Shown here piece after piece: positions 370-15,989 of a stretch of DNA of 64,000 nt. Position numbers and translations under genes: made by a program. The stretch's first letter is position 1. The number at the start of each line of letters is the position of its first letter. The notes under the pieces were generated by a model. It saw only the letters and a program-made list of their open reading frames with translations, did no database searches and was not told where the DNA came from. The stretch spans positions 1-64,000 of the forward strand of contig CANQMW010000006.1 in NCBI GenBank assembly GCA_947625045.1. Direction: 5' to 3'. Origin of the DNA: an uncultured Oscillospiraceae bacterium (GTDB lineage Bacteria > Bacillota > Clostridia > Oscillospirales > Oscillospiraceae).

Positions 370-373
370 TGAT

Positions 374-1129: not shown

Positions 1130-1134
1130 TCATC

Positions 1135-1569: not shown

Positions 1570-1590
1570 CTATTTGGCTGAGGATATGAC

Positions 1591-2820: not shown

Positions 2821-2909
2821 TACATGGTGTCATGTATTGGGAAGGAGCTCTTGAACAAGGGCGAAACTAGCCGAAGATCTATCTTTCTAAACAAAGGAGA
2901 GCGGCGAAT

Positions 2910-3401
2910 ATGACAGATGCAAAAGTGATACATGAGATACCGATATATGCGATGAAAAAAGAGGAATTGCACAGGAAATATGCGAAATTGGCTTCCACAT
3001 ATCGCGCTGAATACAGCCACTCGGACAAAGAAACGGTCAATGCGCTGATTGCACTAGCCTCGTATCCCCAACGGCTTTGGGAGTATAATCACTTGGTCGG
3101 CTTCATCCAGATTTCGGCGACTTGCCAAGATATTCTTTTTGACGTATTTCTTCCGACACCGCCTAGAAAGAGGTATATATGGAGATCTGGCAAAAAAATT
3201 TTCTTTCATAACGTCTCAGCCAATGGAACCCATTTCTATGTAAATGAAAAAACGCCTAATAGTAACATACAAACGAGGGTGGCGGAGATGTTGAGTGGCG
3301 TTATAAAGGAGCACATTCCTACGAGGTACTATGTCGATACCGTAGCGTTTGATAATACAAATCCCGTTCTGGATTATAGGAAAATCATGGATAATGCGTA
3401 A
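2910..3401 (+). CDS. Hypothetical protein of the restriction-modification operon
   Basis: A 163-residue protein I do not recognise. AAAGGAG sits 9-15 bases before the ATG, so it is probably translated. It is mostly soluble, with a charged helical N-terminus, no signal peptide and no membrane segment. It follows the methyltransferase by 89 bases on the same strand and is closed by a strong hairpin, so it reads as the last gene of the defence operon. It might be an accessory nuclease subunit, a controller or an unrelated defence gene; the sequence does not decide. Confidence 0.6.
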   Translation: MTDAKVIHEIPIYAMKKEELHRKYAKLASTYRAEYSHSDKETVNALIALASYPQRLWEYNHLVGFIQISATCQDILFDVFLPTPPRKRYIWRSGKKIFFHNVSANGTHFYVNEKTPNSNIQTRVAEMLSGVIKEHIPTRYYVDTVAFDNTNPVLDYRKIMDNA

Positions 3402-3500
3402 AGCGTCGCGTCAAGGCATGTGGGTCTAACGGTGTATGTAGTATCTGGTAGAGATACGATGTACCTGATCCATAGGACAGAATACTGACAAAATCCAGCA

Positions 3501-3537
3501 TGGGATGGAAGTGTCATATAATGACATCTCCATCCCA
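3501..3537. terminator. Hairpin terminator between convergent genes
   Basis: Arms of 17 bases (3501-3517 and 3521-3537) pair except for a two-base internal mismatch around a 3-base loop. It lies between the 3' ends of the convergent restriction operon and HEPN gene and probably serves both. There is no long T-run. Confidence 0.6.
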
Positions 3538-3611
3538 TAATTGAATACCTACAAAACAGATTTAAAATGGGGCGTTTGTTTTAATGACATATGCGGCACT
3601 TGGTTTGAATC

Positions 3612-5159
3612 CTATATCTTCCATTCATCATCATAATCGTCAAGATATAAATGAGGTATTGTTTTTGTTTCTCCAAACGAGTTATACTTCTTTTTCTCTT
3701 CAATGTGGACAGCGAGAGTCAGCTCAATGATAACTTCTCGGATCATTTGTAGAAGTTCGAGTGTATAGTCCTGCAGATCAGCCTCTGATATATGATAGGT
3801 CATTTCATCATCAACATATGGTTTGTCGATCGGGTATAGTAAATCGGAATGAACCTTAACATATTTGTGTTCGATTGCATTTCGTAATGATTTGAGCCTT
3901 TGTAATTCTGGGAGCGGAGAGTCACCAAATTCCTTTTTAAAGTCTTTGTATATCCAGTTTATTGCAACTATGGCGGAGTTTCCATTCGCTTCAAGCCGTT
4001 TGTGCTTATATTTACTGTTTCCATGCCCACTTTCATCCTTCCAAATACTATGAAAAGAAATGTCATGCTCTTTTATACCTAGTTGCCAGTATGTGTTGAT
4101 GAAGAATGCGACTTTATCAAATAAAGAGTACAAAAGGCGAAAAGATGTTTTTATGCTTTCAACCCGGATAGAATATTGCGGATAGTCATATAGATTGACC
4201 AAATAGGTGTCCTTGTCGGCGTAATGGGGCTGGTCGGTTATTTCAATTCCCCTGTAAAACAAGTATCTTGCATAAATATATTCTTGTTTAAGCTGATTGA
4301 ATAATCCAAAGTAAATAGGTATGTCGGTTTGAGATATGGATGTGACAATGCTTGGTAACTGTAGTGTATCCGCAGCAAATGAGGAGTGTTCAACTAGGAG
4401 ATCATTCAGTGGATTCAAAAAGACATGATTGTGGAGGCACCATCTACGATACTCATATTCATGTGCTATACCCATCGAATACTCTGGCATATTGAGTGGC
4501 TTGTCCAAGAATTCGGTCCTATATTCTGGTTCATAGCCATTGATTATTCTCATAAAATAGTTTTTTACATCCGAAGGTATATGTGAATCTCCCTCTTCAA
4601 TAGCAGATTTTAGGCTATTATAAGCGAAATAATGTAGATAATTCTGATGCCCTGGGTCATGAACTAACGACCCATAAGAAAGTAAAGCAATACCCATATT
4701 GCCCTCTGCCATTTTAAAGCCATTGCTGATGATAAGGCTGCTCCGATAAAAGTGGATAGCAGCAAGTTTTCTTTCGCAGTGACTGAGAGCATTTGCGTAA
4801 TTTGTAAATAATGGCAGTTTGATTCCCTTAACATATGGCATGAATTTATCGTTATTGAGTTCCTTTGCGCGTAACAGTTCAATAGCGATTCTATAATAGT
4901 ATAATGCTCTTTCATATATTTCTTCTGTTGCATATTCCGGGATGTATTTTGCCAGATCAGTATAAGATGTTCCTAACGAATAGTAAATCGGAGCATAATC
5001 ATAGGTCATCTTATCCTTTACAAATTTCTCACACTCATCAATTGTGCATTTTGTTTTGCCCCAGTCTTTTTCATCGTATGCTTTATCAAACGATGCGGCA
5101 TAGTAATTACATTGTTCTGCGAATGGATCTATGTATTGTGTAGAATCCATCATTTTCAT
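3612..5159 (-). CDS. LA2681-like HEPN domain protein with TPR-like N-terminus
   Basis: A 515-residue protein. The N-terminal 200 residues are helical, with repeated Tyr/Ala-rich pairs resembling TPR units. The C-terminal third carries Arg-Asn-Ala-Ile-Glu-His, the Rx4H signature of HEPN ribonucleases, followed by Lys-Tyr-Val-Lys-Val. This layout matches the LA2681-like HEPN family. HEPN proteins commonly act as RNA-cleaving effectors in defence or toxin systems. Several in-frame ATGs (5159, 5153, 5150) follow AGAAAGG; the second or third has better spacing. The gene is AT-rich compared with the host and stands alone beside the restriction operon. No antitoxin partner is adjacent. Confidence 0.75.
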   Translation of the reverse strand: MKMMDSTQYIDPFAEQCNYYAASFDKAYDEKDWGKTKCTIDECEKFVKDKMTYDYAPIYYSLGTSYTDLAKYIPEYATEEIYERALYYYRIAIELLRAKELNNDKFMPYVKGIKLPLFTNYANALSHCERKLAAIHFYRSSLIISNGFKMAEGNMGIALLSYGSLVHDPGHQNYLHYFAYNSLKSAIEEGDSHIPSDVKNYFMRIINGYEPEYRTEFLDKPLNMPEYSMGIAHEYEYRRWCLHNHVFLNPLNDLLVEHSSFAADTLQLPSIVTSISQTDIPIYFGLFNQLKQEYIYARYLFYRGIEITDQPHYADKDTYLVNLYDYPQYSIRVESIKTSFRLLYSLFDKVAFFINTYWQLGIKEHDISFHSIWKDESGHGNSKYKHKRLEANGNSAIVAINWIYKDFKKEFGDSPLPELQRLKSLRNAIEHKYVKVHSDLLYPIDKPYVDDEMTYHISEADLQDYTLELLQMIREVIIELTLAVHIEEKKKYNSFGETKTIPHLYLDDYDDEWKI

Positions 5160-5272
5160 CCTTTCTATACAAGTAACTCACAAAGCAATTTTAACATATC
5201 GCGCTATTAAACGCAACGAACTGAAGGAACGGGGCTTCGTAGTGAGAAACTGGTAGAGCAGTAAACTAAATC

Positions 5273-5300
5273 GCGGCGGCAGTCGAGTGACTGCCGCCGC
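5273..5300 (-). terminator. Terminator of the mobilisation operon
   Basis: A perfect 12-bp GC-rich stem (5273-5284 with 5289-5300) with a 4-base loop lies just past the stop of the 61-residue gene. On the minus strand it is followed by a moderately T-rich stretch. Confidence 0.75.
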
Positions 5301-5305
5301 TGGCG

Positions 5306-5491
5306 TTATCGTGCCTTGGTGTCTTGGAGGTGTCTTTCTGCCTCCCGCTGGGCCTTCCATGCCGCGAACTCCCGCTGGCCCTCCTCGCTCTCGTAGAACG
5401 CGAGGATGTCCGGCAGGAAGCACCGGGCGAGTTTCTCGATCTCGTGCTGCGGGATGTTGGTGTCGTTTATGAGCTTTTTCCTACGACCCAA
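5306..5491 (-). CDS. Small conserved mobile-element protein
   Basis: A 61-residue charged protein beginning Met-Gly-Arg-Arg-Lys-Lys and rich in Glu, Ala and Arg at its end. The start is TTG at 5491-5489, chosen because AGGAGG ends 5 bases upstream; no in-frame ATG has a comparable site. Proteins of this kind are common next to relaxase genes in clostridial mobile elements, but I know of no defined function. It is the last gene before the operon terminator. Confidence 0.65.
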   Translation of the reverse strand: MGRRKKLINDTNIPQHEIEKLARCFLPDILAFYESEEGQREFAAWKAQREAERHLQDTKAR

Positions 5492-5591
5492 TGTTACCTC
5501 CTATGTAGCGCTATGCTAGTAGTGATGGATGAACGGTGTCATGTTCTGCTCACTCCTTTCTGGTATGATCTAAAGCCTGGATCTGCGGTCA

Positions 5592-5631
5592 GGGGTGTAA
5601 GGATACCACCCCTCCGGGTTTTGCGCCCGGA
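5592..5631 (-). terminator. Double hairpin downstream of the Cys-rich VLP gene
   Basis: Two short stems lie in the gap between two minus-strand genes: 5592-5597 with 5607-5612, and 5613-5618 with 5626-5631. They could be a partial terminator or an mRNA processing structure. No T-run follows, so read-through to the next gene is likely. Confidence 0.35.
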
Positions 5632-5644
5632 AAGCCTTGCAGAT

Positions 5645-6082
5645 TCAGGAACTTTGCTGTTCTATCGTTCTACTATTCGCCCTGCGTCGTTTGGCGTACT
5701 CCGCCTTTTGCCGCCGCTGGGCTATGGTCTTACAATCGTCGCAGTATTTTGCCCGGTTGGAGCCGGGTATGAACACTCTGCCGCAGATCGCGCACCGCTT
5801 CATGGTGTCCTTGCCGAATATCTCCGTTTCAAGCTCCCCTCCGGCCTTATCCTTCAGCAGCACCCAGCGAAAAATTTTGCAGCAGACGGAGTAGGAAAGC
5901 ATCTGCGGGCACGGGACGTCCTCGCCGTCATCCAGGTAAAGACAGTTGCCATTATCACAGACGCTGCACAGCTTGCGAATGAGCGTGACCGCCCGCTGGC
6001 GCTGTCTACCGTTCATACGTGGGAGCGAGCCGTTCGGCTTCCGCTCAACGGGCGGGAGCAGTTCAAGATGGAATGAGCTCAT
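5645..6082 (-). CDS. Cysteine-rich VLP-family protein
   Basis: A 145-residue protein with two Cys groups: a central set (Cys-Ser-Val-Cys, Cys-Pro, then Cys-Cys) and a C-terminal zinc-ribbon-like set (Cys-Ala-Ile-Cys-Gly ... Tyr-Cys-Asp-Asp-Cys). The tail is basic. This matches the Cys-rich VLP family, regularly encoded directly after relaxases in Firmicutes elements. The Cys pairs suggest metal binding; its molecular role is unknown to me. It overlaps the relaxase gene by 20 bases, so the two are probably translationally coupled. Confidence 0.8.
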   Translation of the reverse strand: MSSFHLELLPPVERKPNGSLPRMNGRQRQRAVTLIRKLCSVCDNGNCLYLDDGEDVPCPQMLSYSVCCKIFRWVLLKDKAGGELETEIFGKDTMKRCAICGRVFIPGSNRAKYCDDCKTIAQRRQKAEYAKRRRANSRTIEQQSS

Positions 6083-7601
6083 GGCGCTTCTCTTTCTTGT
6101 GGCCCAGTATGTTCTCCAGATTGTTCTTCACAGTCTCCAGTTCCTTCACCCTGCGCTGCTTCTCCCGGTAGTCTTTGTACCGGGCGTTCTTCTCCGATGT
6201 AAGCTGCTGTATCTCCGCTTGCAGCGCCTTGGTGCTGGGCAGCTTGGTGATCCCGTGGTCCTTGAAATACTTGGAGGCGGCGTTGGACAACCTGAACTCC
6301 CGTTCATGCGCCTGGGCGTATTCGGCCCTGGCCTTGGCGCTTTTCAGCGCCTTGTATTCTTGCCGGACAATCTTTGTTTCCCAATATGTCAGAAGCTGCT
6401 TCAACAACTCTTTCTTCCCGGCGATGATGGTCTCTATGGATTTGAGTTTTTCCCGGCTCTCTTGCAACTCGCTCCGGGCAGCAGACAACAACTCGTTCAA
6501 CTCGTCCATGGAGGAAAAGCCGTACTCGGTGTATGCGTTCAGGGTGTTTGCCATCTGCTGGAGATTGAATCCCTGCGCCCATTTCTCGTAGCCGATGCCC
6601 TTTCCCTCGGCGCGTTTGGCCTCAATGTCCACGAGCCGCTGGACGCTTCCGGCTTCATGGAGCTTGTCCAGAACGCTGGAACGGACAGGCCGCTTCAGCG
6701 CGTTTCGCGCCAATGCCTCGTTCACCGCCGCGAGATCATAGGCGTCGCCCAGCTTCCGGGCCGTGATGGATTTCGCTCTGTCCGGCGAGAGATAGGATAG
6801 TCGGCCCCGGCTCTCCTTGACTGTCACACCCTCACGGAGAAGCAACTCGGCAAACGCATCAAAAGAAGTGGCTGTCTCTAATGCCTTACGGATAGTCCGG
6901 CGCAGCTTTTCTTTGTCCGTCTCAAACTTGGTGGGCTTGTCAGACTTGTCCAGTTTTGCCTGTCCCTTTTTCTGCGTCCAATACTCCCGGTCATTGATAC
7001 GGTCCTGGCTGCCATTGAGCAAGTCGGTCTGGTATAGACCTTCCCGGTGGCACATCTCCATGACCTCGGCCTTGAAGTAGTCCATTGCCGCGTTGGTGCA
7101 ACGGTGCTTCATCCCGGCTTTCACGTCAGCGGGCCTGTCCATGTACGGCAACATGGGGACATCTGCGATCCGCAGGCTGTTGATGATGATATGTATGTGG
7201 ATGTTGCCGGTATGGTTGTGGCCGTCCGGGTGGGTACAGACCAACGCCTGGTGGCCGGGGAAATGCTCGCGGCAAAACTGCTCTCCAAGCTCCTGCGCCC
7301 GGTCCACGGTCAGGCCGTTATCTGCGCCATCTCTTGGGTCAAAGCTGATGATGTAGTGGTGGCTCTTTACATCATCCCGGCTTTGATTTTTGCCGTATTG
7401 TAGATTCGCTCTCATGCAGGCAATGGCAAAATCCTGTCCCTCACAGTTGAGCGCGGCGATGCGGTGATCCTCTCTTGGAATGAGCCGCCCGCTTTCATCC
7501 AAAATGGGCTTCATGGTGAACTCGTCATGCTCGAACAGCAGATACTTCTCTGCGTCGCTGTACCGGGCGTTTTTAGAGTTTATGTGTTTGAACGTCGCCA
7601 A
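6063..7601 (-). CDS. Relaxase / mobilisation nuclease (MOBP type)
   Basis: The relaxase nicks oriT and leads the cut strand into a recipient. The first 200 residues form the nuclease: Tyr-His-Tyr-Ile-Ile-Ser-Phe, then the metal-binding histidine group near residue 130 (His-Pro-Asp-Gly-His-Asn-His ... Ile-His-Ile-His-Ile-Ile). The remainder is helical with long charged coiled-coil segments. I chose TTG at 7601 (512 residues): the protein then begins Ala-Thr-Phe-Lys-His-Ile-Asn as its relatives do, and AAGGTGG lies upstream. A start at 7631 would add ten unrelated residues. It overlaps mobC by 29 bases. No coupling protein or type IV secretion genes are visible, so transfer may need a helper. 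Confidence 0.92.
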   Translation of the reverse strand: MATFKHINSKNARYSDAEKYLLFEHDEFTMKPILDESGRLIPREDHRIAALNCEGQDFAIACMRANLQYGKNQSRDDVKSHHYIISFDPRDGADNGLTVDRAQELGEQFCREHFPGHQALVCTHPDGHNHTGNIHIHIIINSLRIADVPMLPYMDRPADVKAGMKHRCTNAAMDYFKAEVMEMCHREGLYQTDLLNGSQDRINDREYWTQKKGQAKLDKSDKPTKFETDKEKLRRTIRKALETATSFDAFAELLLREGVTVKESRGRLSYLSPDRAKSITARKLGDAYDLAAVNEALARNALKRPVRSSVLDKLHEAGSVQRLVDIEAKRAEGKGIGYEKWAQGFNLQQMANTLNAYTEYGFSSMDELNELLSAARSELQESREKLKSIETIIAGKKELLKQLLTYWETKIVRQEYKALKSAKARAEYAQAHEREFRLSNAASKYFKDHGITKLPSTKALQAEIQQLTSEKNARYKDYREKQRRVKELETVKNNLENILGHKKEKRHELIPS

Positions 7602-7971
7602 TAGCTGCCGCCACCTTTTCCAAGACTTCATATTTCAACATAGCGAGATCAACAGCTGCGTCCCGAACCTCTTTTTCCAAGTCGGCATAAGGTGTTCCAT
7701 ATTCGTTCAGGTGCCGTGCGATCTGATTGAGATTGCCGCCGATCTTGCCGTACTGCGCGATGAGGTCGTCCAGCTTTTTCAGCATTTCATCGTTCACCGA
7801 CGTGATCACGATAGTGGGCTTGAGCGTCGTGCCGGTGATGGCCTTGCGGATATATGCGGCTTTGCTGACGCCGCACAGAGCTGCAACTTCTGCAAAGGTG
7901 GCGTATTCCTCTTTGCTTAGCCGCGTTTTCACGGTCAGGTTCCGGTGGGGCGTGTTGTATTTTTTCGGCAT
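7573..7971 (-). CDS. mobC: MobC-like relaxosome accessory protein
   Basis: A 132-residue protein with an N-terminal ribbon-helix-helix-like segment (Leu-Thr-Val-Lys-Thr-Arg-Leu-Ser) and the C-terminal motif Ile-Gly-Gly-Asn-Leu-Asn-Gln-Ile-Ala-Arg, the signature of the MobC family. Such proteins bind oriT and help the relaxase open the nic region. The ATG at 7971 is preceded by AAGGAGA 11 bases away; the longer open frame upstream has no homology-like content. It directly precedes and overlaps the relaxase gene, the usual relaxosome arrangement. Confidence 0.85.
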   Translation of the reverse strand: MPKKYNTPHRNLTVKTRLSKEEYATFAEVAALCGVSKAAYIRKAITGTTLKPTIVITSVNDEMLKKLDDLIAQYGKIGGNLNQIARHLNEYGTPYADLEKEVRDAAVDLAMLKYEVLEKVAAAIGDVQTHKL

Positions 7972-8481
7972 GGGCGAAATGATCTCCTTTGGGAACAAGC
8001 GAATTTGCAGAATGAGCAAACAAGCAGGGTTTGGGGAAGGCACTCCCCAACAAGATTTCATGAGGCAAAAATGAGCGAAAAGCGAATTTTGGGCCCATGG
8101 TAGAATCTTGCTCTGACAAGTGGTGCTCCACAGCGGCGATCCATCGTGCAAAATCATTTTAGATTCTTCTCTCTGCGGAATTTGTCGAAATCCGTCGGAT
8201 GAACAAGAAAAACTGACACGATTTGACGAGACTTGCAAACGCTGACGATGAATGCTTCTCTATTATCTATTGGAACTGAAGTGCCATTTTGAACTACAAC
8301 TTTTCAAAAAATTTTTCTGAAGTGCTTTTGCAGTTTGAGAAACAAACATGCGGACAACCTGGAAACGCTGATTTCCCTAGAGGAAATTCCACTCACACGA
8401 AAAGTTTTGTCCGGCCAAATTGAAATGTCAAAGACAGGGGGGTGCAAGCATTTATCCCTAAAACGCTCCACGCAAAAAGCA
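7972..8481. other. Gene-free stretch with candidate oriT
   Basis: About 500 bases between mobC and the next terminator hold no convincing gene. Immediately upstream of mobC, where MOBP origins usually lie, an inverted repeat TTGGGGA/TCCCCAA flanks a 6-base spacer around 8033-8052. Further up, a short CTTG...CAAG dyad lies near 8107-8120. These fit an oriT. The nic site cannot be fixed by eye. Confidence 0.4.
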
Positions 8482-8509
8482 GCAGAGGCAGGAAAACTCC
8501 TGCCTCTGC
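8482..8509 (-). terminator. Strong intrinsic terminator
   Basis: A perfect 12-bp stem (8482-8493 with 8498-8509) and 4-base loop. On the minus strand a TTTTT run follows closely. It ends the two-gene transcript of the small proteins upstream. Confidence 0.85.
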
Positions 8510-8529
8510 AAGTGTGAAATTTTGGATCG

Positions 8530-8775
8530 TTAGTCCAGCGGTTCGTACCGCGTGACCGCTTTCAAATATTGCTCCGGGTCGCCGTTCAGAACGAGCTCGG
8601 CGTAGCTGAACGGGTCGTTGTAGATGAGATGGTCCAGCTCAGACCGCTGGTGCAAGTTGTCGGCGACCTCGCGTTCCACGGCAGTGCAGTCGATGGCGAT
8701 CATGCTGCCGTCTGTGTATTGCAGCTCCACGCAGCCTGTGTCCATGTTGAACTCACAGGAGATCAGCTTTTTCAT
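8530..8775 (-). CDS. DUF6061-like small protein
   Basis: An 81-residue acidic protein starting Met-Lys-Lys-Leu-Ile-Ser-Cys and ending Arg-Tyr-Glu-Pro-Leu-Asp. I recognise it as the DUF6061-type family seen in clostridial mobile elements; the assignment is from memory. It has no membrane segment and no known role. Its ATG overlaps the stop of the preceding 59-residue gene (ATGA), so the two are coupled. Confidence 0.7.
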   Translation of the reverse strand: MKKLISCEFNMDTGCVELQYTDGSMIAIDCTAVEREVADNLHQRSELDHLIYNDPFSYAELVLNGDPEQYLKAVTRYEPLD

Positions 8776-8951
8776 TTTTCGGCACCCCTTTCATCTTCTT
8801 CCATAGTCTCGATGCACACATCCTCCGCCTCCAAAAGCGCATCCTGAATGACCGTCCGACCGGCGGCGTTTTCCGGCATGTCCGGCAGCACATCCAGCGC
8901 GTGCGACGCCGCTGCACAAAGTATGTGATAGGCCCGCTTGTAGTCCGTCAT
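8772..8951 (-). CDS. Small hypothetical protein (59 aa)
   Basis: A short gene: Met-Thr-Asp-Tyr-Lys-Arg-Ala-Tyr at the start and a Glu/Asp-rich tail ending Arg-Gly-Ala-Glu-Lys. GGGAGG lies 7 bases before the ATG, and the stop overlaps the next start in ATGA. It is predicted helical and soluble, with no recognised domain. It is transcribed away from the divergent XRE gene and shares the dyad operator between them, so the pair probably forms one regulated unit. Confidence 0.65.
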   Translation of the reverse strand: MTDYKRAYHILCAAASHALDVLPDMPENAAGRTVIQDALLEAEDVCIETMEEDERGAEK

Positions 8952-8969
8952 TTTCTCGCCTCCCGGCGC

Positions 8970-9004
8970 TAACCCTTTTGGGTTATTTTAACCCAAAAGG
9001 GTTA
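8970..9004. promoter_or_regulatory. Nested palindromic operator between divergent genes
   Basis: Two perfect 15-base arms (8970-8984 and 8990-9004) flank ATTTT. Each arm is itself a dyad, AACCC-TTTT-GGGTT or its complement. This gives two adjacent half-symmetrical sites of the sort bound by two HTH dimers. It lies between the minus-strand small-protein pair and the plus-strand XRE gene, so that XRE protein is the likely ligand. Confidence 0.75.
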
Positions 9005-9055
9005 AACTTGTCAACAGGAATTGGCTATCCTCATAGGTGAAATGAGGTGGCAAAA

Positions 9056-9298
9056 ATGAATGTGGGAGAAGCGGTAGCGGAGCGGATATTGGAACTGTGC
9101 CGGGAGCGGAACATCTCGGTAAACCGGCTGTGCACAATCAGCGGTGTCACGCAGTCTACGGTGAACAACATCGTCAGCCTTCGCAACAACAGCGCGACGG
9201 TCGCCACGGTAAAGAAGCTGTGTGACGACCTGGACATCGGCATTTCCGAGTTCTTTGCTTCCCCGCTCTTTGACGATTTGGAGCAGGAGATAAGATAA
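9056..9298 (+). CDS. XRE-family HTH regulator
   Basis: An 80-residue protein that is essentially one HTH domain: a first helix with Ala-Glu-Arg-Ile-Leu-Glu-Leu-Cys, then Arg-Leu-Cys-Thr-Ile-Ser-Gly-Val-Thr-Gln-Ser-Thr-Val-Asn as the turn and recognition helix. ATG at 9056 is chosen because GAGGTGG ends 5 bases upstream; a GTG at 9047 would overlap that site. Transcribed divergently from the 59/81-residue pair across the nested palindrome, it is probably an autoregulating repressor that sets expression of this part of the element. Confidence 0.85.
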   Translation: MNVGEAVAERILELCRERNISVNRLCTISGVTQSTVNNIVSLRNNSATVATVKKLCDDLDIGISEFFASPLFDDLEQEIR

Positions 9299-9320
9299 GA
9301 CTTATAGAATCTCCACGAAC

Positions 9321-9355
9321 AGCGCACACGTGCTTTTGGTCGGCACGTGTGCGCT
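9321..9355 (+). terminator. Hairpin after the XRE gene
   Basis: A perfect 13-bp stem (9321-9333 with 9343-9355), 9-base loop, then TTTG. It lies just past the XRE stop codon and is a probable terminator. Confidence 0.65.
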
Positions 9356-9415
9356 TTGTATGTAGCCGCAATTGATGGTTGTTCCCTTTGGCGCGGAATA
9401 ATCTCCAGCGCCTTC

Positions 9416-9608
9416 TTACACTATGATTACCAATCGGTCCTGAAGATTGGCATAGGTGCTGTCATCCGTATTAATGAAATCGGAAGATAGGACATATTTC
9501 TCAATGGCATCGGACTCTTCGCCAATAGTGAAGCGGCTCGTCTCGTGGTATCCAAGGTAATCATCTCTGTTCGCAAACAGCGTCGCCTGCATGTACTCTG
9601 AGGTACAT
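9416..9608 (-). pseudogene. Frame-broken small gene at the end of the NERD cassette
   Basis: The best ribosome binding site here, GGAGGAGG, is followed after 5 bases by ATG at 9608. That frame stops after 15 codons (Met-Tyr-Leu-Arg-Val-His-Ala-Gly-Asp). A neighbouring frame then stays open for about 58 codons, through Asp-Asp-Tyr-Leu-Gly-Tyr-His to Leu-Val-Ile-Ile-Val at 9416. One extra base near 9565 would explain it. Alternatively, an intact gene starts at a weak codon (GTG 9634 or ATG near 9592). The family is unknown. The rest of 9356-9665 holds nothing else I can support. Confidence 0.35.
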
Positions 9609-9665
9609 TGTGTCCTCCTCCATAGATTTGACACGTTTGGTTAATCGGACATCTGGTGTCTTTGG

Positions 9666-9884
9666 TCAGAACTTGAACAGGGTCATTTTTCCACTGTGGA
9701 CCTTGGTGTGGCAATCGTGGCAGAGAGAGATAATATTGTCCACATCGGCGGCGCCAGCGAACTGGTGGTCGATTATATGGTGGCCCTCAACATTGGCCTT
9801 TGAGCCACAGATTTGGCAGGTGCCCAAGTCCCGCGCTTTGCCTTCACGCTGCGCCCTTATGTGGGCAGCTGATCTTTTTGCCAT
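9666..9884 (-). CDS. Small HNH-type nuclease
   Basis: A 72-residue protein with Cys-Gln-Ile-Cys-Gly near residue 23, then Glu-Gly-His-His-Ile-Ile-Asp-His, and Leu-Cys-His-Asp-Cys-His-Thr-Lys-Val-His. This is the HNH fold with two zinc-binding Cys pairs and the catalytic His-His. GGAGGG precedes ATG 9884, chosen over a start 5 codons earlier. The N-terminus is basic. It belongs to a run of closely spaced small genes downstream of the NERD gene. It might nick DNA as an anti-phage effector or help the element; neither is shown. Confidence 0.75.
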   Translation of the reverse strand: MAKRSAAHIRAQREGKARDLGTCQICGSKANVEGHHIIDHQFAGAADVDNIISLCHDCHTKVHSGKMTLFKF

Positions 9885-9885
9885 G

Positions 9886-10083
9886 TTACTTCCCTCCAAT
9901 CATTTTCTGGCCCCGCTGCAGGAGAGCACTTACATTGCTTACCAGGCCAGAGGCGATTGTCCCACGGCTGAGCGGTGCGTATTTTTCTTTTGAGCGCATG
10001 ATTTCCTTTGAAATCTGCGACGCCTGGTTGGTCGTCAAGCCGGAGATAACAGTTACTACAGCCTTATCTTTTTTTCCCGCCAT
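9886..10083 (-). CDS. Hypothetical protein (65 aa)
   Basis: A basic 65-residue protein, Met-Ala-Gly-Lys-Lys-Asp-Lys at the start and Met-Ile-Gly-Gly-Lys at the end, with good ribosome-binding spacing (GAGGAGG). No domain is recognised. It ends 1 base before the HNH gene start, indicating co-translation with it. Confidence 0.55.
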   Translation of the reverse strand: MAGKKDKAVVTVISGLTTNQASQISKEIMRSKEKYAPLSRGTIASGLVSNVSALLQRGQKMIGGK

Positions 10084-10095
10084 GATTTATCCTCC

Positions 10096-10308
10096 TCAAA
10101 ACTTGGTCACAGTAACATCACCGATTGTCTCTTGTATGGTGTTGTTCCCGTATCCGATGGTAACGATTCCTTCCGTATCGACTCGCAGGCCGGACTCGTC
10201 TTTTAACAGTGGGATTACATCCACCTCTCCATTTGTTCGCCGGATAGCAATCATATCGGAATTGACACAAATCACGCTGTCGCCCTTTTTCATAACACCG
10301 ATATACAT
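10096..10308 (-). CDS. Hypothetical protein (70 aa)
   Basis: A beta-rich 70-residue protein with many Val, Ile and Thr and repeated Asp-Gly turns, no signal peptide and no membrane helix. AAGGAG lies upstream. It is spaced 12 bases before the next gene in the cassette. The family is unknown to me. Confidence 0.55.
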   Translation of the reverse strand: MYIGVMKKGDSVICVNSDMIAIRRTNGEVDVIPLLKDESGLRVDTEGIVTIGYGNNTIQETIGDVTVTKF

Positions 10309-10326
10309 ACACTAACACTCCTTTCC

Positions 10327-10473
10327 TTACGTTTCGCTGCCAATCATTTTTTGCGCCGCTATCCCAAGCATGAGGACGATAAGATCGTCTATCGGCCCAG
10401 GGCACAGATCCAACGGGGATACGATGTACAGGAAAACCAGCACGAGAAGCATTCCTTTTGCCACGCCATTCAT
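10327..10473 (-). CDS. Small membrane protein (48 aa), DUF1232-like core
   Basis: A short gene with AAGGAGG 7 bases before ATG 10473. It encodes one hydrophobic helix (Met-Leu-Leu-Val-Leu-Val-Phe-Leu-Tyr-Ile-Val), then Ser-Pro-Leu-Asp-Leu-Cys-Pro-Gly-Pro-Ile-Asp-Asp-Leu. The Ser-Pro-x-Asp ... Asp-Asp pattern recalls the core of DUF1232 (YkvA-like) proteins, here reduced to its minimum. Function is unknown. It directly follows the NERD gene, whose product also ends in a hydrophobic helix. Confidence 0.55.
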   Translation of the reverse strand: MNGVAKGMLLVLVFLYIVSPLDLCPGPIDDLIVLMLGIAAQKMIGSET

Positions 10474-10544
10474 TTTGTTTTACCTCCTTAAGTTTAAATG
10501 ATCATGTTCTTACTTCTGGAATAAGTCCTGCGCAGAGTAGCTAA

Positions 10545-11615
10545 TCAAGGCTTCCTTATAAACCACAGACCGCCGAGAACAGCTGGCACAGCAACGACAG
10601 CTGCACTTGCAACACGGTTTATCGCCTTTTTCCAGCCAGCATGGGGGAGAGCGTTTAACTTAAGTCTCTTCACCCGCTTGGTGATGGGTGTCTTATCTGT
10701 GGCCTTTTCCTGTGCGGATGTGCAGATATCAGGTTCCTCTTTTCCCTGTGCCGCAGCGGATGCATCCTCGATCTGTGCCATCAGAACAGCGTAGTCCTCT
10801 ATGATCTCATCGCAATTGACAGGCGAGGGTGCCTTCTTGACGACATGGTGCGCCCGGATGGTCTGCTCGATGTTCATAATCTGCTCCGCTGTCAAACTGT
10901 CTTCTCCCGCGGTGAACTCTTGGATCTTGTAGGAAATACCACCGCCGCAGCAAACCAGGACGCCATTGAAATGATTCTCGACCTTTACTCTGTCGTCCGG
11001 GAACATCAGGATGCTCTGATAGTGCTTCGGAAAGCTGTCGCCTATGTACTCCTTCAGCAGTGCCTGTTTGATGCTCATCCGTCCGGCGAGGTCATAGGTG
11101 ATCTCCCGGTCATCATCCTTCTTCAGAATGCCGTCCTGCGTGATCACTACAGAAGGCCCCCAGTTCTTGACCTCTATCACGAACAGACCATAGGGAGTGA
11201 TCGCGATGGCATCGTACTCCGCTTCGGCGTCCTCATCCTCAAGCTGTACGTTGTAGAGGACCTTCACGCTCTTATCGAGGGACAGAAGCTTCAGCGCTTT
11301 GCGGGCAACTCGCTCCCCGTTCAGGCCCTTGATGTAACTTCCGATCGTGTACCCGAGCTCATTCAGGTTGCTCTTGAGCCGGAGGAAAGAGCTTGTCTGA
11401 TCGAGCCTATACTCCCTTGCTAGTGCCTCTAGGTGCACCAGGAGGTCCTTGCCCCTCAGGTTCTCGGCGTGGGTCTTTTCAAACACCCCTTTGACAAGGG
11501 CGTTCTGAAATTCTTTGAGCACATCCACGAGCTGCTGGTTTGTGTACATCTCATCTGCCTTGGTTCCGAGTCCGTTCAGGGTTGCTTTGATTTGGTCGAT
11601 TCTTTCGTTATTCAT
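10545..11615 (-). CDS. NERD-domain nuclease-like protein with C-terminal membrane helix
   Basis: A 356-residue protein. Residues about 100-220 carry the nuclease-related domain: Gly-Leu-Asn-Gly-Glu-Arg-Val-Ala, then Glu-Tyr-Asp-Ala-Ile-Ala-Ile-Thr-Pro, then Val-Ile-Glu-Val-Lys-Asn-Trp. That is the Asp...Glu-x-Lys pattern of PD-(D/E)XK nucleases. The C-terminus has a basic stretch and a hydrophobic segment (Val-Ala-Val-Pro-Ala-Val-Leu-Gly-Gly-Leu-Trp-Phe-Ile) that could anchor it in the membrane. The start at 11615 has AAGGAGA upstream, inside the end of the previous gene, so the two are coupled. NERD proteins occur in several defence contexts. Confidence 0.85.
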   Translation of the reverse strand: MNNERIDQIKATLNGLGTKADEMYTNQQLVDVLKEFQNALVKGVFEKTHAENLRGKDLLVHLEALAREYRLDQTSSFLRLKSNLNELGYTIGSYIKGLNGERVARKALKLLSLDKSVKVLYNVQLEDEDAEAEYDAIAITPYGLFVIEVKNWGPSVVITQDGILKKDDDREITYDLAGRMSIKQALLKEYIGDSFPKHYQSILMFPDDRVKVENHFNGVLVCCGGGISYKIQEFTAGEDSLTAEQIMNIEQTIRAHHVVKKAPSPVNCDEIIEDYAVLMAQIEDASAAAQGKEEPDICTSAQEKATDKTPITKRVKRLKLNALPHAGWKKAINRVASAAVVAVPAVLGGLWFIRKP

Positions 11616-11856
11616 GATGTTCTCCTTTCTTTTTGTGGTCATAAAATATTTCAATGTTACTTTCTCTTGCACTGTCTGTTATGTTTGTGGCTTCATCCGA
11701 AGCTAGAACATATGGTATGTACTCAGGATGGCATCTGAGTTTTTCGGTAAGACGAATTGTAAGTATTCTCTCTTTTACAGTCACCTTATACCGCCTCTCG
11801 TTGTGGCCGTAGCTTCTTATGATGTTAGAATACTCTGCTTTTGCCACATTCACCAT
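11608..11856 (-). CDS. Hypothetical protein coupled to NERD gene (82 aa)
   Basis: An 82-residue basic protein whose stop overlaps the NERD start by 8 bases; the NERD ribosome binding site lies inside this frame. The middle reads Arg-Tyr-Lys-Val-Thr-Val-Lys-Glu-Arg-Ile-Leu-Thr-Ile-Arg-Leu. No family is recognised. No clear Shine-Dalgarno precedes ATG 11856, so the start is uncertain. Position suggests the first gene of the cassette. Confidence 0.5.
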   Translation of the reverse strand: MVNVAKAEYSNIIRSYGHNERRYKVTVKERILTIRLTEKLRCHPEYIPYVLASDEATNITDSARESNIEIFYDHKKKGEHHE

Positions 11857-11902
11857 AACAGCAACTGCAAAATAAGCACTAGCTTTTCTGCTCCAACTGC
11901 AA

Positions 11903-11937
11903 AAAAGGCACTGTGGACATTGGCCACAGTGCCTTTT
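11903..11937. terminator. Bidirectional intrinsic terminator
   Basis: Arms 11903-11916 and 11924-11937 pair perfectly with A-run and T-run ends. It lies downstream of the minus-strand XRE gene and just before the NERD cassette, so it separates them or acts as an attenuator. Confidence 0.8.
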
Positions 11938-11957
11938 AAGATGCTATCTTTATACTG

Positions 11958-12473
11958 CTATTTCCTTCGTGTCTTTGCTTGCGCGTATGCGTCCATATCA
12001 ATATCACCACGAGCAAGCTTTTGTTCTACCCACAACTGTAAAGTTTCGACGGTAATGGATATCCGCTCGAGGTCCTCCTGGATATGTATGAAGTCATCGA
12101 CCTCATCTGCCGTAATGATCCCATCAGCAGTTATTTCAATTAAACGCTCCTGCTGGTTTTTTACAGAGTTGAGAGATGCAAGCACTTCCAATACTATCTG
12201 AGATAATTCCTTTACTCTTACCTCTGGAACATACTGTTGTCCGATTTTGCATTCGTTAGCACAAAAGTAATTGCAAAGGTGCGGTGCCTGATACTTGGCT
12301 GCCATTATGATTATCTCGTCTGGATGGGCGGTGAATTTTCCACTTTCAATACGCTCTATGCGCTCAGGCGGAATTGATTCCAACAATTCGCTGGCTTTTT
12401 CTCTGCTCAAGCCGAGCTCCTCTCGCCGGATTTGATACACTGTTTTATTTTGTCTTGCTGATGTACGAGCCAA
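11958..12473 (-). CDS. XRE-type HTH protein with helical C-terminal domain
   Basis: A 171-residue protein. The N-terminal HTH reads Tyr-Gln-Ile-Arg-Arg-Glu-Glu-Leu-Gly-Leu-Ser-Arg-Glu-Lys-Ala-Ser-Glu-Leu, followed by Pro-Pro-Glu-Arg-Ile-Glu-Arg-Ile-Glu. A Cys-rich bit (Cys-Asn-Tyr-Phe-Cys-Ala-Asn-Glu-Cys) precedes a long helical C-terminal domain. TTG at 12473 is the likely start, with GGGGAG upstream and a strong promoter at 12523-12551. It may control the NERD cassette downstream or the element generally. Confidence 0.75.
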   Translation of the reverse strand: MARTSARQNKTVYQIRREELGLSREKASELLESIPPERIERIESGKFTAHPDEIIIMAAKYQAPHLCNYFCANECKIGQQYVPEVRVKELSQIVLEVLASLNSVKNQQERLIEITADGIITADEVDDFIHIQEDLERISITVETLQLWVEQKLARGDIDMDAYAQAKTRRK

Positions 12474-12522
12474 TGATAGTCTCTCCCCTCTATGTTTTAG
12501 AGCGCGGATTAATTATGACTTG

Positions 12523-12551
12523 ATTATAATGTTAAGCCGACGCTGTTTCAA
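12523..12551 (-). promoter_or_regulatory. Sigma-70 promoter for the XRE gene
   Basis: On the minus strand TTGAAA (12551-12546), 17 bases, TATAAT (12528-12523). It points at the 171-residue XRE gene. Confidence 0.8.
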
Positions 12552-12660
12552 GGGCAGAGATGTATTTTCGCCTACAATTTGATATACTTGAGTCTGTTGA
12601 AGTAACATTACACCACAGCAACGAAGTATATTACAGCTATTATATTATGCAAACTAGATG

Positions 12661-12689
12661 TTGATTTATATGCCGTGATATGCTATGAT
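12661..12689 (+). promoter_or_regulatory. Promoter for the XRE-recombinase operon
   Basis: TTGATT (12661-12666), 17-base spacer, TATGAT (12684-12689), about 28 bases before the XRE start. It is near-consensus, so the integrase operon probably needs active repression. Confidence 0.65.
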
Positions 12690-12717
12690 GTAGAAAACTG
12701 ACAAGGGAGGGTCCATC

Positions 12718-13074
12718 ATGCAGATCATGGCAGAACGGCTGCGAGCGCTACGGCTGTCCATCAACGTGTCCCAAAATAAGCTGGCCCCTATCCTGGGGCT
12801 GCGGCAGTCCGGCGTCAACCGCTATGAGAATAACCAGTGTGAGCCCTCCGCCAAGGTGCTGCTCCGCTATGCTGACTACTTTGACGTGTCGCTGGACTAT
12901 CTCTATGGCCGCACGGACGATCCCAAGGGAAAGGTGTATTCCAACGAGCCGGACCTGGGCAAGCTGCACCCGGAGATGAATGAGTTCATTGAAATGTGCT
13001 TTGATCCAAAATCCCCCATGAACAAGCGGTTGAAAAAGACGCTGGTGCAGATGCTGGAGGAGGAGACGAAATGA
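12718..13074 (+). CDS. XRE-family regulator of the recombinase
   Basis: A 118-residue protein with an N-terminal HTH: Leu-Arg-Leu-Ser-Ile-Asn-Val-Ser-Gln-Asn-Lys-Leu, then Gly-Val-Asn-Arg-Tyr-Glu-Asn, then Tyr-Ala-Asp-Tyr-Phe-Asp-Val-Ser-Leu-Asp-Tyr-Leu-Tyr-Gly-Arg-Thr, the typical XRE end. GGGAGGG precedes the ATG. The stop overlaps the recombinase start (ATGA), so both are made together and the regulator probably controls integrase level. Confidence 0.88.
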   Translation: MQIMAERLRALRLSINVSQNKLAPILGLRQSGVNRYENNQCEPSAKVLLRYADYFDVSLDYLYGRTDDPKGKVYSNEPDLGKLHPEMNEFIEMCFDPKSPMNKRLKKTLVQMLEEETK

Positions 13075-14618
13075 CAGCAGTGATCTACGCCCGTTACTCC
13101 TCGGACAGCCAGCGGGAGGAGAGCATAGAAGGGCAAATTCGGGAGTGCACTGCCTTCGCGGAGAAAAACGGCATCACCGTACTGCGCCACTACATAGACC
13201 GGGCGTTCTCCGCAAAGACGGATAACCGCCCGGAATTTCAGGCCATGATAAAGGACAGCGGGAAAAAGCTGTTCGACATAATCATCGTCTGGAAACTGGA
13301 CCGCTTTGCCCGAAACCGCTATGACAGCGCCCGGTACAAAGCCGCGCTCAAAAAGAACGGAGTCAAGGTAGTATCGGCCACGGAAGTTATATCTGAGGGA
13401 GCGGAAGGCATTATTCTGGAATCCGTGCTGGAGGGCTACGCTGAGTATTATTCCGCCGACCTGTCCGAGAAGGTCATCCGGGGCATGACGGACAACGCCC
13501 TCAAGTGCAAATTTAACGGCGGGACCTTGCCCACGGGCTACGTCATTGACAGTGAACAGCACTTCCAGATAGACCCGCTGACGGCACCTTATGTGCTGGA
13601 GGCGTTCAAGAAATACGACGCTGGTTACACCATGACAGCTATCCGGGATTGGCTCAACGAAAAAGGTATGAAGAACACCCGCGGACAGGCGTTCTCTTAC
13701 AACAGCATCCAGCATCTGCTGAACAATCGCCGATACATGGGTGAGTTCCGCTATCGTGATACGGTGGTCCCCGACGGCATCCCCGCTATCGTACCCAAGG
13801 ACTTGTTTGAGCGGGTACAGGAAAAGCTGGCAAAGAACAAAAAAGCCCCGGCCCGGCATAAGGCTGAAGACGACTACCTGCTGACCACAAAGCTATTCTG
13901 CGGCTATTGCGGCAGCTATATGTGCGGCGAGAGCGGCACCAGCCATACGGGAAAAGTCCACCATTACTACAAGTGCGCCACAGTGAAAAAGAAGCGCGGC
14001 GACTGCCACAAGAAGCCCGTCAGCAAGCAATTTATTGAGGATTTCGTCGTCCACGAGACGATGAAGGAAATACGGAACGACAAAACCATTGAAGCCATTG
14101 TTTCTATGGTGATGGACCTGCAGGCGCAGGAGAACACCCAGCTCCCGCTGTATGAACAGCAGTTGAAAGAGGCGGAGACCGGCATCAACAATCTGCTCAA
14201 CGCCATCCAGCAGGGAATACTTACTCCATCCACCAAAACCAGGTTGGAAGAACTGGAGGCCACAAAGGAGGACCTGGAGATCAGGGTCGCAAACGAGAAG
14301 CTGGCGAAGCCGAAGCTGACGGCGGAGTTTGTGACCATGTGGCTGGAGCGGTTCCGCAAGCTGGACATGAGGAAGAAGGAACACCGGCAGCAGCTTATAG
14401 ACACATTCGTCAACTCGGTCTACTTATTCGACGACAAGCTGACGCTCCACATCAACTACAAGGACGGGACAAAGACCGTCACCTTCGACGAGATGAAAGC
14501 GGCCCTGGACGAACAGGCCGTGGGTTCGGATTTGGATTGCCGTGGTGCACCACTGTCAAGCGATCGTTCGCCGGGCTGTGGGATGGACGGATGCCCCTGC
14601 TGCTGGGTGTGTCATTGA
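13071..14618 (+). CDS. Large serine site-specific recombinase
   Basis: The 515-residue integrase/excisionase of the element. Resolvase domain at 1-150: the catalytic Ser lies in Arg-Tyr-Ser-Ser-Asp-Ser-Gln (residues 8-14), with Asp-Arg-Phe-Ala-Arg later. The recombinase domain follows (Gly-Tyr ... Leu-Leu-Asn-Asn-Arg-Arg-Tyr-Met-Gly), then a zinc ribbon (Cys-Gly-Tyr-Cys-Gly ... Tyr-Tyr-Lys-Cys) and a coiled coil. It has the layout of the TnpX/TndX-type subgroup. The last 20 or so residues (Gly-Cys-Gly-Met-Asp-Gly-Cys-Pro-Cys-Cys) lie over DNA that in another frame encodes a Y-family polymerase end. The native C-terminus therefore differs before integration or after excision. Confidence 0.95.
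   Translation: MTAVIYARYSSDSQREESIEGQIRECTAFAEKNGITVLRHYIDRAFSAKTDNRPEFQAMIKDSGKKLFDIIIVWKLDRFARNRYDSARYKAALKKNGVKVVSATEVISEGAEGIILESVLEGYAEYYSADLSEKVIRGMTDNALKCKFNGGTLPTGYVIDSEQHFQIDPLTAPYVLEAFKKYDAGYTMTAIRDWLNEKGMKNTRGQAFSYNSIQHLLNNRRYMGEFRYRDTVVPDGIPAIVPKDLFERVQEKLAKNKKAPARHKAEDDYLLTTKLFCGYCGSYMCGESGTSHTGKVHHYYKCATVKKKRGDCHKKPVSKQFIEDFVVHETMKEIRNDKTIEAIVSMVMDLQAQENTQLPLYEQQLKEAETGINNLLNAIQQGILTPSTKTRLEELEATKEDLEIRVANEKLAKPKLTAEFVTMWLERFRKLDMRKKEHRQQLIDTFVNSVYLFDDKLTLHINYKDGTKTVTFDEMKAALDEQAVGSDLDCRGAPLSSDRSPGCGMDGCPCCWVCH
14520..14565. other. Probable element/chromosome junction (att site)
   Basis: Recombinase-like coding character ends near 14520. Polymerase-like coding in another frame becomes recognisable from about 14562 (Phe-Ala-Gly-Leu-Trp-Asp-Gly-Arg-Met-Pro-Leu). 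The crossover therefore lies between these points. The second copy would be at the other end of the element, outside the window. Confidence 0.6.
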
Positions 14619-14835
14619 TGGGTCTTTCCCGTGGCGGGACGGCGCAGTTATCCCTGTTTGAGGACGAGAAGAAAGAGCGCTCCAGGAAGCGGGACAAGGC
14701 TATGGACACCATCCGGGACAAGTACGGCGCGGACACCATCGTGCGGGCTGGGGCCATGGGCCCGGGGAAGAGTGTGGGCCGCAAGCACAAGGCCCGGACA
14801 GAGCGGAAGAAAGGTATCACGAGCAACACAAAAAG
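14562..14835 (+). pseudogene. 3' remnant of a Y-family DNA polymerase (DinB-like), split by the element
   Basis: In the frame with codons starting at 14618 the DNA encodes Leu-Leu-Gly-Val-Ser-Leu, then Gln-Leu-Ser-Leu-Phe-Glu-Asp, then Lys-Ala-Met-Asp-Thr-Ile-Arg-Asp-Lys-Tyr-Gly and Ile-Val-Arg-Ala. That order is the C-terminal tail of clostridial DinB/UmuC-type polymerases, including the beta-clamp-binding Gln-Leu-Ser-Leu-Phe. Catalytic and little-finger domains are absent and should lie at the far end of the element. No stop codon follows in frame before the terminator; the frame runs on to 15223, so a base change near the end is possible. Confidence 0.75.
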
Positions 14836-14866
14836 ATGGCAGCCGCTTTCGCGGCTGCCATCTTTT
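14831..14866. terminator. Bidirectional terminator between polymerase remnant and leuB
   Basis: Arms 14831-14846 and 14851-14866 pair perfectly, with A and T runs at both ends. It serves both the plus-strand polymerase remnant and the minus-strand leu operon. Confidence 0.9.
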
Positions 14867-14918
14867 TACTGCAGCAGCTTTCCCAAAAGGGTGTGCCTTT
14901 ATCTTTGGTTATTCCGCG

Positions 14919-15989
14919 CTATATCCTGTCCAGGATGGCCTGGACCATCTGGCCGCAGGAAAGAGCCTTGTCTCCGGGCCCCGCGATATCCGCCGTGCGG
15001 CAACCGTCGCTCAGGGCCCTGTCCACCGCCGCCTCCACGTAGCCCGCCTCCGAACCCAGGCCGAAAGAATAACGCAGCATCATGGCCCCGGAGAGGATGG
15101 CGGCGATGGGGTCGGCCCTGCCTGTGCCGGCGATGTCCGGGGCGGAGCCGTGGATGGGCTCGTAGAGCCCCCGGGTCCCGTCTCCCAGGGAGGCGGAGGG
15201 CAGCAGGCCGATGGAGCCGGTGATCTGGCTGGCCTCGTCGGAGAGGATGTCGCCGAACATGTTGGTGGTGACGATCACGTCGAATTGGCCGGGCCAGCGG
15301 ACCAGCTGCATGGCGGCGTTGTCCACCAGCATATCCTGCACCGTCACGTCCGGGTACTGCTCCGCTACCCGGTGGACCGTCTCCCGCCACAGCCGGGAGG
15401 TCTCCAGAACGTTGGCCTTGTCCACGCTGATGACCTTGCCCCGGCGCTTTTGGGCCGCGGCGAAGGCCACATGGGCGATGCGCTCGATCTCCATGACGGA
15501 GTAGGCCTCGGTGTCGTAGGCCTCCGGGCCGTATCGGCCGTCCCGGCGGCCCCGGTCGCCGAAGTAGATGCCGCCGGTCAGCTCCCGGACCATCAGCAGG
15601 TCGAACCCGTCCGCCACGGTCTCCGCCCGGAGGGGGCACTTGCCCGCCAGAGCGGGATAGAGCTTAGCCGGGCGCAGGTTGGTATAAAGGCCCAGCTTGC
15701 TTCGCAGGCCCAGCAGCGCCCGCTCCGGCCGGATATCGCCGGGCAGTGTGTCCCACTTGGGACCGCCCACGGCGCCCAGCAGCACGCTGTCGCTGGCCAG
15801 GCACCCCTCCACCGTCTCCGGGGGCAGGGGCACGCCGGTGGCGTCGATGGCGCAGCCGCCGGCGAGATAGGACTTGAAACGGAAAGTATGGCCGTATTTT
15901 TCGCCCACCTTTTCCAGCACGGCCACGGCGCCGTCCACCACCTCGGGACCGATGCCGTCGCCCTTCACCAAAGCGATGTTGTATTCCAT
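14919..15989 (-). CDS. leuB: 3-isopropylmalate dehydrogenase
   Basis: Oxidises and decarboxylates (2R,3S)-3-isopropylmalate to 2-oxoisocaproate with NAD in leucine synthesis. The 356-residue protein has the family marks: Lys-Gly-Asp-Gly-Ile-Gly-Pro-Glu near residue 9, Gly-Gly-Pro-Lys-Trp, [10 protein letters not shown], the catalytic Asp-Lys-Ala-Asn-Val-Leu, and the NAD-site [11 protein letters not shown]. Length is standard. It is the last gene of leuA-leuC-leuD-leuB, 3 bases after leuD, and is closed by the terminator at 14831-14866. Confidence 0.97.

Follow-up and report, generated by a model that had tools for sequence, protein, structure and literature searches.

Here we report that the first 64,000 nucleotides of contig CANQMW010000006.1 from an uncultured Oscillospiraceae bacterium (the window) carry most of an integrative mobilizable element (IME) with a large serine recombinase and an apparently self-splitting attachment site. 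The recombinase gene of this element is probably cut by the element's own attachment site: the excised circle would encode an enzyme with a conserved C-terminal tail, and integration, most likely at a tRNA-Leu(TAA) gene, would exchange that tail for one encoded by the host.

Recombinase genes closed by host DNA

The window enzyme has the make-up of a large serine recombinase, with Resolvase (PF00239), Recombinase (PF07508) and zinc-ribbon (PF13408) domains that all score above the Pfam cut-offs in a protein of about 500 residues, and its predicted structure shows long helices between the zinc-ribbon strands. Compared with 20 relatives, its conservation stops at ...GSDLDCRGAP, encoded by DNA that ends in GGTGCACCA at window position 14552. 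The two closest homologues (94% identical) cease to match at residues 496–497, and the next ones at residues 494–504. When the DNA ends of 21 recombinase copies were compared, they shared a common end, which in the window reads GGTTCGGATTTGGATTGCCGTGGTGCACCA, and diverged beyond it. The copy of genome G038, one of the 21, lacks the ..ACCA end and is not part of the count that follows (G, C and L numbers are our handles for genomes, contigs and loci).

Right ends were gathered from 41 sources, the window and 40 loci (L049-L068 and L108-L127), and were counted where the motif ending in ACCA was preceded by at least 100 open codons, which gave 30 distinct ends. In all 30, the recombinase frame runs open through ACCA and meets its stop in the flank, so that the integrated recombinase of this family has no stop of its own and, as a family rule, ends in one supplied by the host. 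The host-supplied tails range from 0 to 579 codons (median 33.5), and the flanks differ from one another within their first 12 bases, those of L067 and L068 by a single base only. One further right end (L120, G012:C83), also left out of the count, has a variant core, GGTGCACAG instead of GGTGCACCA, with the frame still open into the flank.

L067 and L068 (G000:C48 and G023:C42) lie in elements of two species that are 99.8% identical over 7 kb. Their right flanks are almost the same and open with different stop codons, TAA and TGA.

The part of the protein that would be exchanged lies beyond the predicted fold. In an AlphaFold2 model of modest quality (mean predicted local distance difference test (pLDDT) 65.8, predicted template modelling score (pTM) 0.38), the final ordered helix ends at residue 484 and confidence is low after it, and the cut falls at residue 494; on this model, the integrated enzyme should therefore keep its folded domains.

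Left ends at tRNA genes and a conserved tail frame

Left ends were located with reverse-complement motifs, in which CACCA was part of the search pattern and tRNA was not. Among 39 distinct left ends, 32 lie directly after a complete tRNA-Leu gene (five anticodons are represented), 3 after tRNA-Glu and 4 after no complete tRNA. The right flanks resemble the DNA normally found 3′ of tRNA genes, often with a terminator-like hairpin as judged by eye. The family targets the 3′ ends of tRNA-Leu and of some tRNA-Glu genes. Intrinsic terminators, which the hairpins after many right ends had suggested as the target, were dropped because the left ends show the tRNA 3′ end as the target and such hairpins normally follow tRNA genes. 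In G027 both ends of an occupied site lie on one contig, with tRNA-Leu(CAA) on the left (L114) and the flank AATAGAAACGG on the right (L115), and the window's own genome has the empty counterpart, a tRNA-Leu(CAA) with the flank AATAGAAACGG and no element between. The same flank also follows tRNA-Leu(TAA) in G012, and is thus not tied to one tRNA gene.

Read in the recombinase frame (..GCA CCA/AAC..), the left end of the window element, on contig C31 of the same genome, encodes the peptide NQHNPNPRPAGPYPVGDGFGFVFYFEPYEATHFRNGVVKRPTSKPRGPKKKKR followed by a stop. Across the 36 left ends with at least 200 bp, 21 carry in this frame a basic tail with a K-P-R-G/E motif, 46–58 residues long in 19 and longer in 2. 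In tails under 60 residues, the balance of K and R over D and E gives net charges between +3 and +9, and the stretch KPRGPKKK may resemble an AT-hook; searches with the tail in phage records, plasmid records and Pfam gave no match. Codon constraint was assessed over the 33 codons that follow an inverted repeat at the left end, in 17 distinct sequences from five genera. In the recombinase frame, pairwise differences at codon positions 1, 2 and 3 numbered 1053, 927 and 2466, and the proportion of synonymous differences (pS, 0.775) exceeded that of non-synonymous ones (pN, 0.208). In the other five frames pN exceeded pS, except in one reverse frame (0.57 against 0.25). The third-position excess was reached by none of 100,000 column shuffles. 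By its third-position bias and the shuffle test, the left end looks like coding sequence in the recombinase frame: beside the tRNA it carries a conserved, coding-like tail with its own stop, in a frame that matches the recombinase.

Both ends were also found in compatible frame in 11 elements complete on single contigs (6.2–13.2 kb; two of them, G073 and G135, are 99.9% identical), whose circles would have tails of 20–54 residues. Since the right frame is open into the flank and the coding-like tail at the left end stands in the matching frame, the recombinase gene itself seems to contain the attachment site. The sequence-only reading of this DNA had proposed that host DNA provides the tail and stop of the integrated recombinase, which the 30 right ends bear out, and that excision would change the protein end, which gains support from the conserved, element-owned tail frame at the left ends.

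Joining the two ends would give a quasi-palindromic attachment site of 49 bp, in keeping with the length of about 50 bp typical of large serine recombinases, with arms GGTTCGGATT and AATCCGAACC and the centre TGGTGCACCA. In three viral contigs, which represent distant relatives, such a site is intact within the gene: the recombinase open reading frame (ORF) runs through it to its own stop, 16–30 residues beyond the site, and the enzymes are 37–43% identical to that of the window. These contigs have exact 127-bp end repeats, as expected of circular genomes. An inverted repeat, AATCCGAACC..GGTTCGGATT, lies just inside left ends (for example in L108 reversed, from 12240) and repeats the attachment arm, perhaps as an additional site for recombinase binding or for regulation.

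We suggest that the excised circle would join the two ends across a palindromic attachment site (attP) of about 49 bp and would encode a recombinase of 547 residues (494 + 53) that ends in a basic tail. With every integration, the conserved tail would be lost and an arbitrary host-encoded one left in its place, and the product of the reaction would thereby rewrite the enzyme. Less certainly, the tail may adapt the enzyme to the circular form, perhaps through a preference for integration of attP into its host counterpart (attP × attB) or by tuning stability; in our view, help at the circular stage is its most likely role. The choice of serine integrases between integration and excision is usually ascribed to a separate directionality factor. 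An attP within the recombinase's own gene could provide a built-in switch of directionality or stability, the circle's enzyme being tailed and integration-competent and the integrated one host-tailed, and could replace or join the recombination directionality factor; we offer this idea tentatively, at somewhat less than an even chance.

The best-surviving alternative, which we regard as rather unlikely, accepts the split and takes it as neutral, so that any C-terminus would be tolerated and the tail would merely give the circle a stop. The wide span of host-supplied tails and the predicted disorder beyond residue 484 fit this explanation, as do 13 of the 36 left ends, whose frames stop after 18–32 codons. 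These 13 are among the 15 left ends that lack the K-P-R-G/E motif, the frames of the other two stopping after 41 and 82 codons, and they indicate that some subclades can do without a long tail. However, 21 of the 36 left ends share some 50 conserved, basic residues whose codons are under constraint, which is more than the need for a stop codon would account for.

The dinB fragment and the junctions of the window copy

The sequence-only reading had also noticed that the end of the recombinase overlaps DNA that codes for a DinB-like C-terminus in another frame. This observation is confirmed by the conserved end at 14552, beyond which the last 21 residues and the stop lie in DinB-coding flank. 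The homology is real, but it spans 14551–14815 and not 14562–14830 as first given. The fragment codes for approximately the last 88 residues of a DinB (Y-family polymerase) and is 75% identical over 89 residues to a DinB of G023:C17 and 62% identical to an intact paralogue in the same genome, with E values (9.7e-37 and 4.2e-28, respectively) that exclude a chance match; at the DNA level the match is 79% identical over window 14551–14814. It has one codon fewer than the aligned relatives, and the stop codon of G023 is absent.

From this overlap the element had been placed inside a Y-family polymerase gene, with integration and excision switching a translesion polymerase off and on. That account is probably wrong. 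The last 77 bases of contig C31, in reverse orientation, are the first 77 of the window; the overlap is exact, its sequence occurs at only two places in the assembly (C31 and the window contig, C6), and a Sau3AI-type gene continues across it in frame. On C31 the left end of the element lies directly after an intact tRNA-Leu(TAA), with no N-terminal half of dinB, and an exact-pattern search of the assembly found only this one left end. The joined element measures about 17.2 kb between tRNA-Leu(TAA) and the dinB fragment. Excision would leave tRNA-Leu followed by the dinB fragment, not a polymerase gene, and a switch of polymerase activity is not supported.

It is accordingly improbable, in our estimate, that the element sits in an otherwise functional dinB whose 5′ half lies beside the left end and whose polymerase excision would restore. 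DinB homology does begin within 2 bp of the element end, and C31 and C6 join at contig ends, where contigs of draft assemblies normally break at branch points. In addition, of 15 tRNA-Leu(TAA) sites, 5 carry the element (that of the window's genome included), 1 is at a contig end and 9 are followed by other DNA, and in none of these nine element-free sites of relatives is that DNA the window's flank. Against a dinB insertion stand the left end at tRNA-Leu(TAA) on C31, with its unique overlap and in-frame gene continuity, and the finding of no second left end. The Y-family polymerase genes of the genome (IMS matches) number four, each with an open frame, and no orphan N-terminal half of dinB was found; the fragment itself lacks its stop and one codon; and among the right flanks, each taken for up to 1.5 kb, 29 of 30 are without a DinB match, the window's being the exception.

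Beyond the fragment, leuB is 96% identical in G023 and has a similar hairpin beside it there, and is followed in that genome by a different gene, with no dinB and no tRNA. Given the nine empty sites without the window's flank and the different neighbour of leuB in G023, the junction of the window copy is, by sequence comparison, rearranged. The target of the window copy is most likely tRNA-Leu(TAA). As dinB homology starts at the attachment core, we suspect an older insertion into dinB, of which the fragment is perhaps the downstream relic, followed by recombination between element copies. Contig C57, whose flank resembles the native one, was considered as the right end of the tRNA-Leu(TAA) copy and dropped as undecidable, because its flank type is dispersed after several tRNA genes.

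Other observations concern the tRNA sites. Several tRNA genes of the window's genome (Leu and Ser; for example at L149, L152, L155 and L156) are followed by a dispersed terminator-like family that starts with CGTC(A/G)GAA, and similar sequences also follow tRNA-Leu in relatives. One left end (L110, G023:C56:833) comes after what appears to be only the 3′ half of a tRNA-Leu, possibly a displaced tRNA fragment of another island. At the ends G000:C56 and G000:C4 (L154 and L204), the tRNA-Leu(CAA) contig breaks right after CACCAAA, where an empty site (AATAGA) and an occupied site (AACCAA) would diverge; a population in which some cells have the element integrated and others have lost or excised it could explain this break.

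Consistent with an IME, the element encodes its own recombinase together with relaxase and mobilization proteins (Relaxase PF03432 and NikA-like/MobC). No complete conjugation apparatus was found among the element proteins scanned, a subset of the ORFs. Its restriction-modification block (window 1–2820 and C31, L108) comprises a Sau3AI-type endonuclease, two C5-cytosine methyltransferases and Vsr.

Table 1. Features of the element and its right flank, in window coordinates
Feature	Position	Strand	Remarks
Right 14.55 kb of the integrative mobilizable element	1..14552	+	Remaining left 2.7 kb on contig C31, same genome
Sau3AI-type restriction endonuclease, C-terminal part	1..369	+	Continued from C31; C31 part matches the Sau3AI model, window piece alone without Pfam match
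Vsr endonuclease	1126..1569	+	Cargo
C5-cytosine methyltransferase	1591..2820	+	Cargo
LA2681-type HEPN protein	3612-5159		Cargo
MobA/VirD2-type relaxase	6063..7631	-	Pfam Relaxase PF03432; sub-cut-off match to TraI/MobP model
MobC/NikA-like mobilization protein	7573..8238	-	
DUF6061 protein	8530-8775		Cargo
HNH protein	9666-9899		Cargo
NERD-domain protein	10545-11672		Cargo
Helix-turn-helix (HTH) regulator	12718..13074	+	Stop overlaps recombinase start
Large serine recombinase ORF	13071..14618	+	515 aa; Resolvase, Recombinase and Zn-ribbon domains
Element-encoded recombinase part	13071..14552	+	494 codons, without own stop
Element half of right attachment site, GGTTCGGATTTGGATTGCCGTGGTGCACCA	14523..14552	+	Also codes GSDLDCRGAP; motif common to 30 right ends, inverted counterpart at left ends
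Host-supplied 21 codons and TGA closing the integrated recombinase ORF	14553..14618	+	Flanking DNA
dinB (Y-family polymerase) 3′ fragment, other frame	14551..14815	+	5′ region and stop codon missing
Terminator-like hairpin with A- and T-runs	14830..14867		Separates leuB from the dinB fragment; judged by eye
leuB of the chromosomal leucine cluster, outside the element	14919..15989	-	TIGR00169

Joined sites, related systems and significance

A scan of the collections for the joined-site pattern returned 4 viral and 17 genome stretches. L206 (G426:C61) and L208 (G428:C63) hold recombinases that resemble each other closely and have the joined site intact within the ORF; they lie in differing chromosome-like surroundings, and a tRNA was not found on either contig. 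The genome matches are not all circles, and some of them lie in chromosome-like contexts. The circular record OY725851 (25.7 kb) was rejected as an excised element, as what comes after its core is a terminator-like hairpin and genes of chromosomal character, and so were small 'Bacteriophage sp.' scaffolds, which have end repeats in 0 of 8 cases and, in several, the core followed by a hairpin. An attP-like joint in G433 was rejected as a circle because the two left ends there show 201 differences over 332 positions: one tRNA-Leu(TAG) is occupied by two different family elements in tandem (L212/L220, G433:C19). In the first of them, the recombinase is broken into two ORFs and has its stop within the second element, two codons after the core.

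Several results weigh against the split-gene reading. The 400 family genomes gave two matches to the joined-site pattern, both divergent, and neither these genomes nor the collection scans contained a K-P-R-G-tailed joint, circle or attP of the window's clade. The rejected G433 joint points the same way, as do the tRNA-Leu(TAA) link of the left flank, which comes from the assembly overlap only, the flank shared with G012, the divergent end in G038, the modest structure model and the left ends with short or motif-less frames. It is very improbable that the left-end frame is something other than a recombinase tail, whether a small gene of its own or the result of constraint on the DNA itself through the attachment region's inverted repeat: the first part of the tail (NPN..GDGFGF) does overlap the repeat AATCCGAACC..GGTTCGGATT, the tailed protein was not observed, and in 18 of the 21 tailed ends an ATG, GTG or TTG precedes the motif in frame, so that start codons alone do not exclude a small gene, but the codon constraint in the recombinase frame extends over 33 codons beyond the repeat, 3 of the 21 have no such codon, and the tail frame is always that of the recombinase end.

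The split recombinase gene finds its nearest principle in the archaeal suicidal (SSV-type) integrases. According to the relevant sections of a review (PMC8371274), these also have attP inside the integrase gene, which integration splits, and combine attachment site and enzyme in one compact module. They are tyrosine recombinases of archaea, whereas the window enzyme is bacterial and, by Pfam, of the serine family, and the window IME is not a member of the archaeal group. Integration divides their genes into an N-terminal and a C-terminal part, of which the latter holds the catalytic domain; here, only a tail past the last predicted ordered element would be lost, and the position of attP inside the gene is deduced from the two ends and seen intact in the three viral contigs of distant relatives.

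Other systems share single features, as far as the corresponding parts of the cited papers describe them. In the integration-dependent immunity of mycobacteriophages, integration at a tRNA gene alters the C-terminus of an element protein, but attP lies inside the repressor gene, the integrase is a tyrosine recombinase and the change concerns an ssrA-like degradation tag (PMC9262239); here, the recombinase itself would be altered and the tail is basic. In phage phiRSS0, attP lies inside a coding gene, ORF13, and integration truncates the C-terminus of the protein, but ORF13 is a possible regulatory gene and the host XerCD acts at dif (PMC3816273). Serine recombinases that use tRNA genes, a practice called rare (PMC3218068), are shared with the actinomycete integrative and conjugative elements (AICEs) of Mycobacterium (tRNA-Leu; PMC3218068) and with phage phiRSM1 (tRNA-Ser; PMC3816273), although in phiRSM1 attP lies between ORF14 (the recombinase) and ORF15 (PMC3816273). 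IMEs of the Tn4451 type are likewise clostridial and have a single large serine recombinase, but Tn4451 and its relatives integrate with low specificity (PMC5704250), whereas the window family uses tRNA-Leu and tRNA-Glu ends. In a large survey of serine recombinases (PMC10083194), the word tRNA is absent from the main text and the portions consulted do not describe this arrangement. The parts of the open-licence PubMed Central (PMC) literature that were searched yielded no description of a serine recombinase with attP inside its own gene.

The annotated stops and lengths of these recombinases would be host artefacts, so that cloning an annotated ORF as a tool would give the wrong protein. An enzyme whose C-terminus is changed by integration would be a natural experiment on the choice between integration and excision, with many host tails. 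In its relevant sections, a 2021 review terms the self-splitting integrase principle exclusively archaeal (PMC8371274); the recombinases described here would extend this principle to bacteria and to a second recombinase family.

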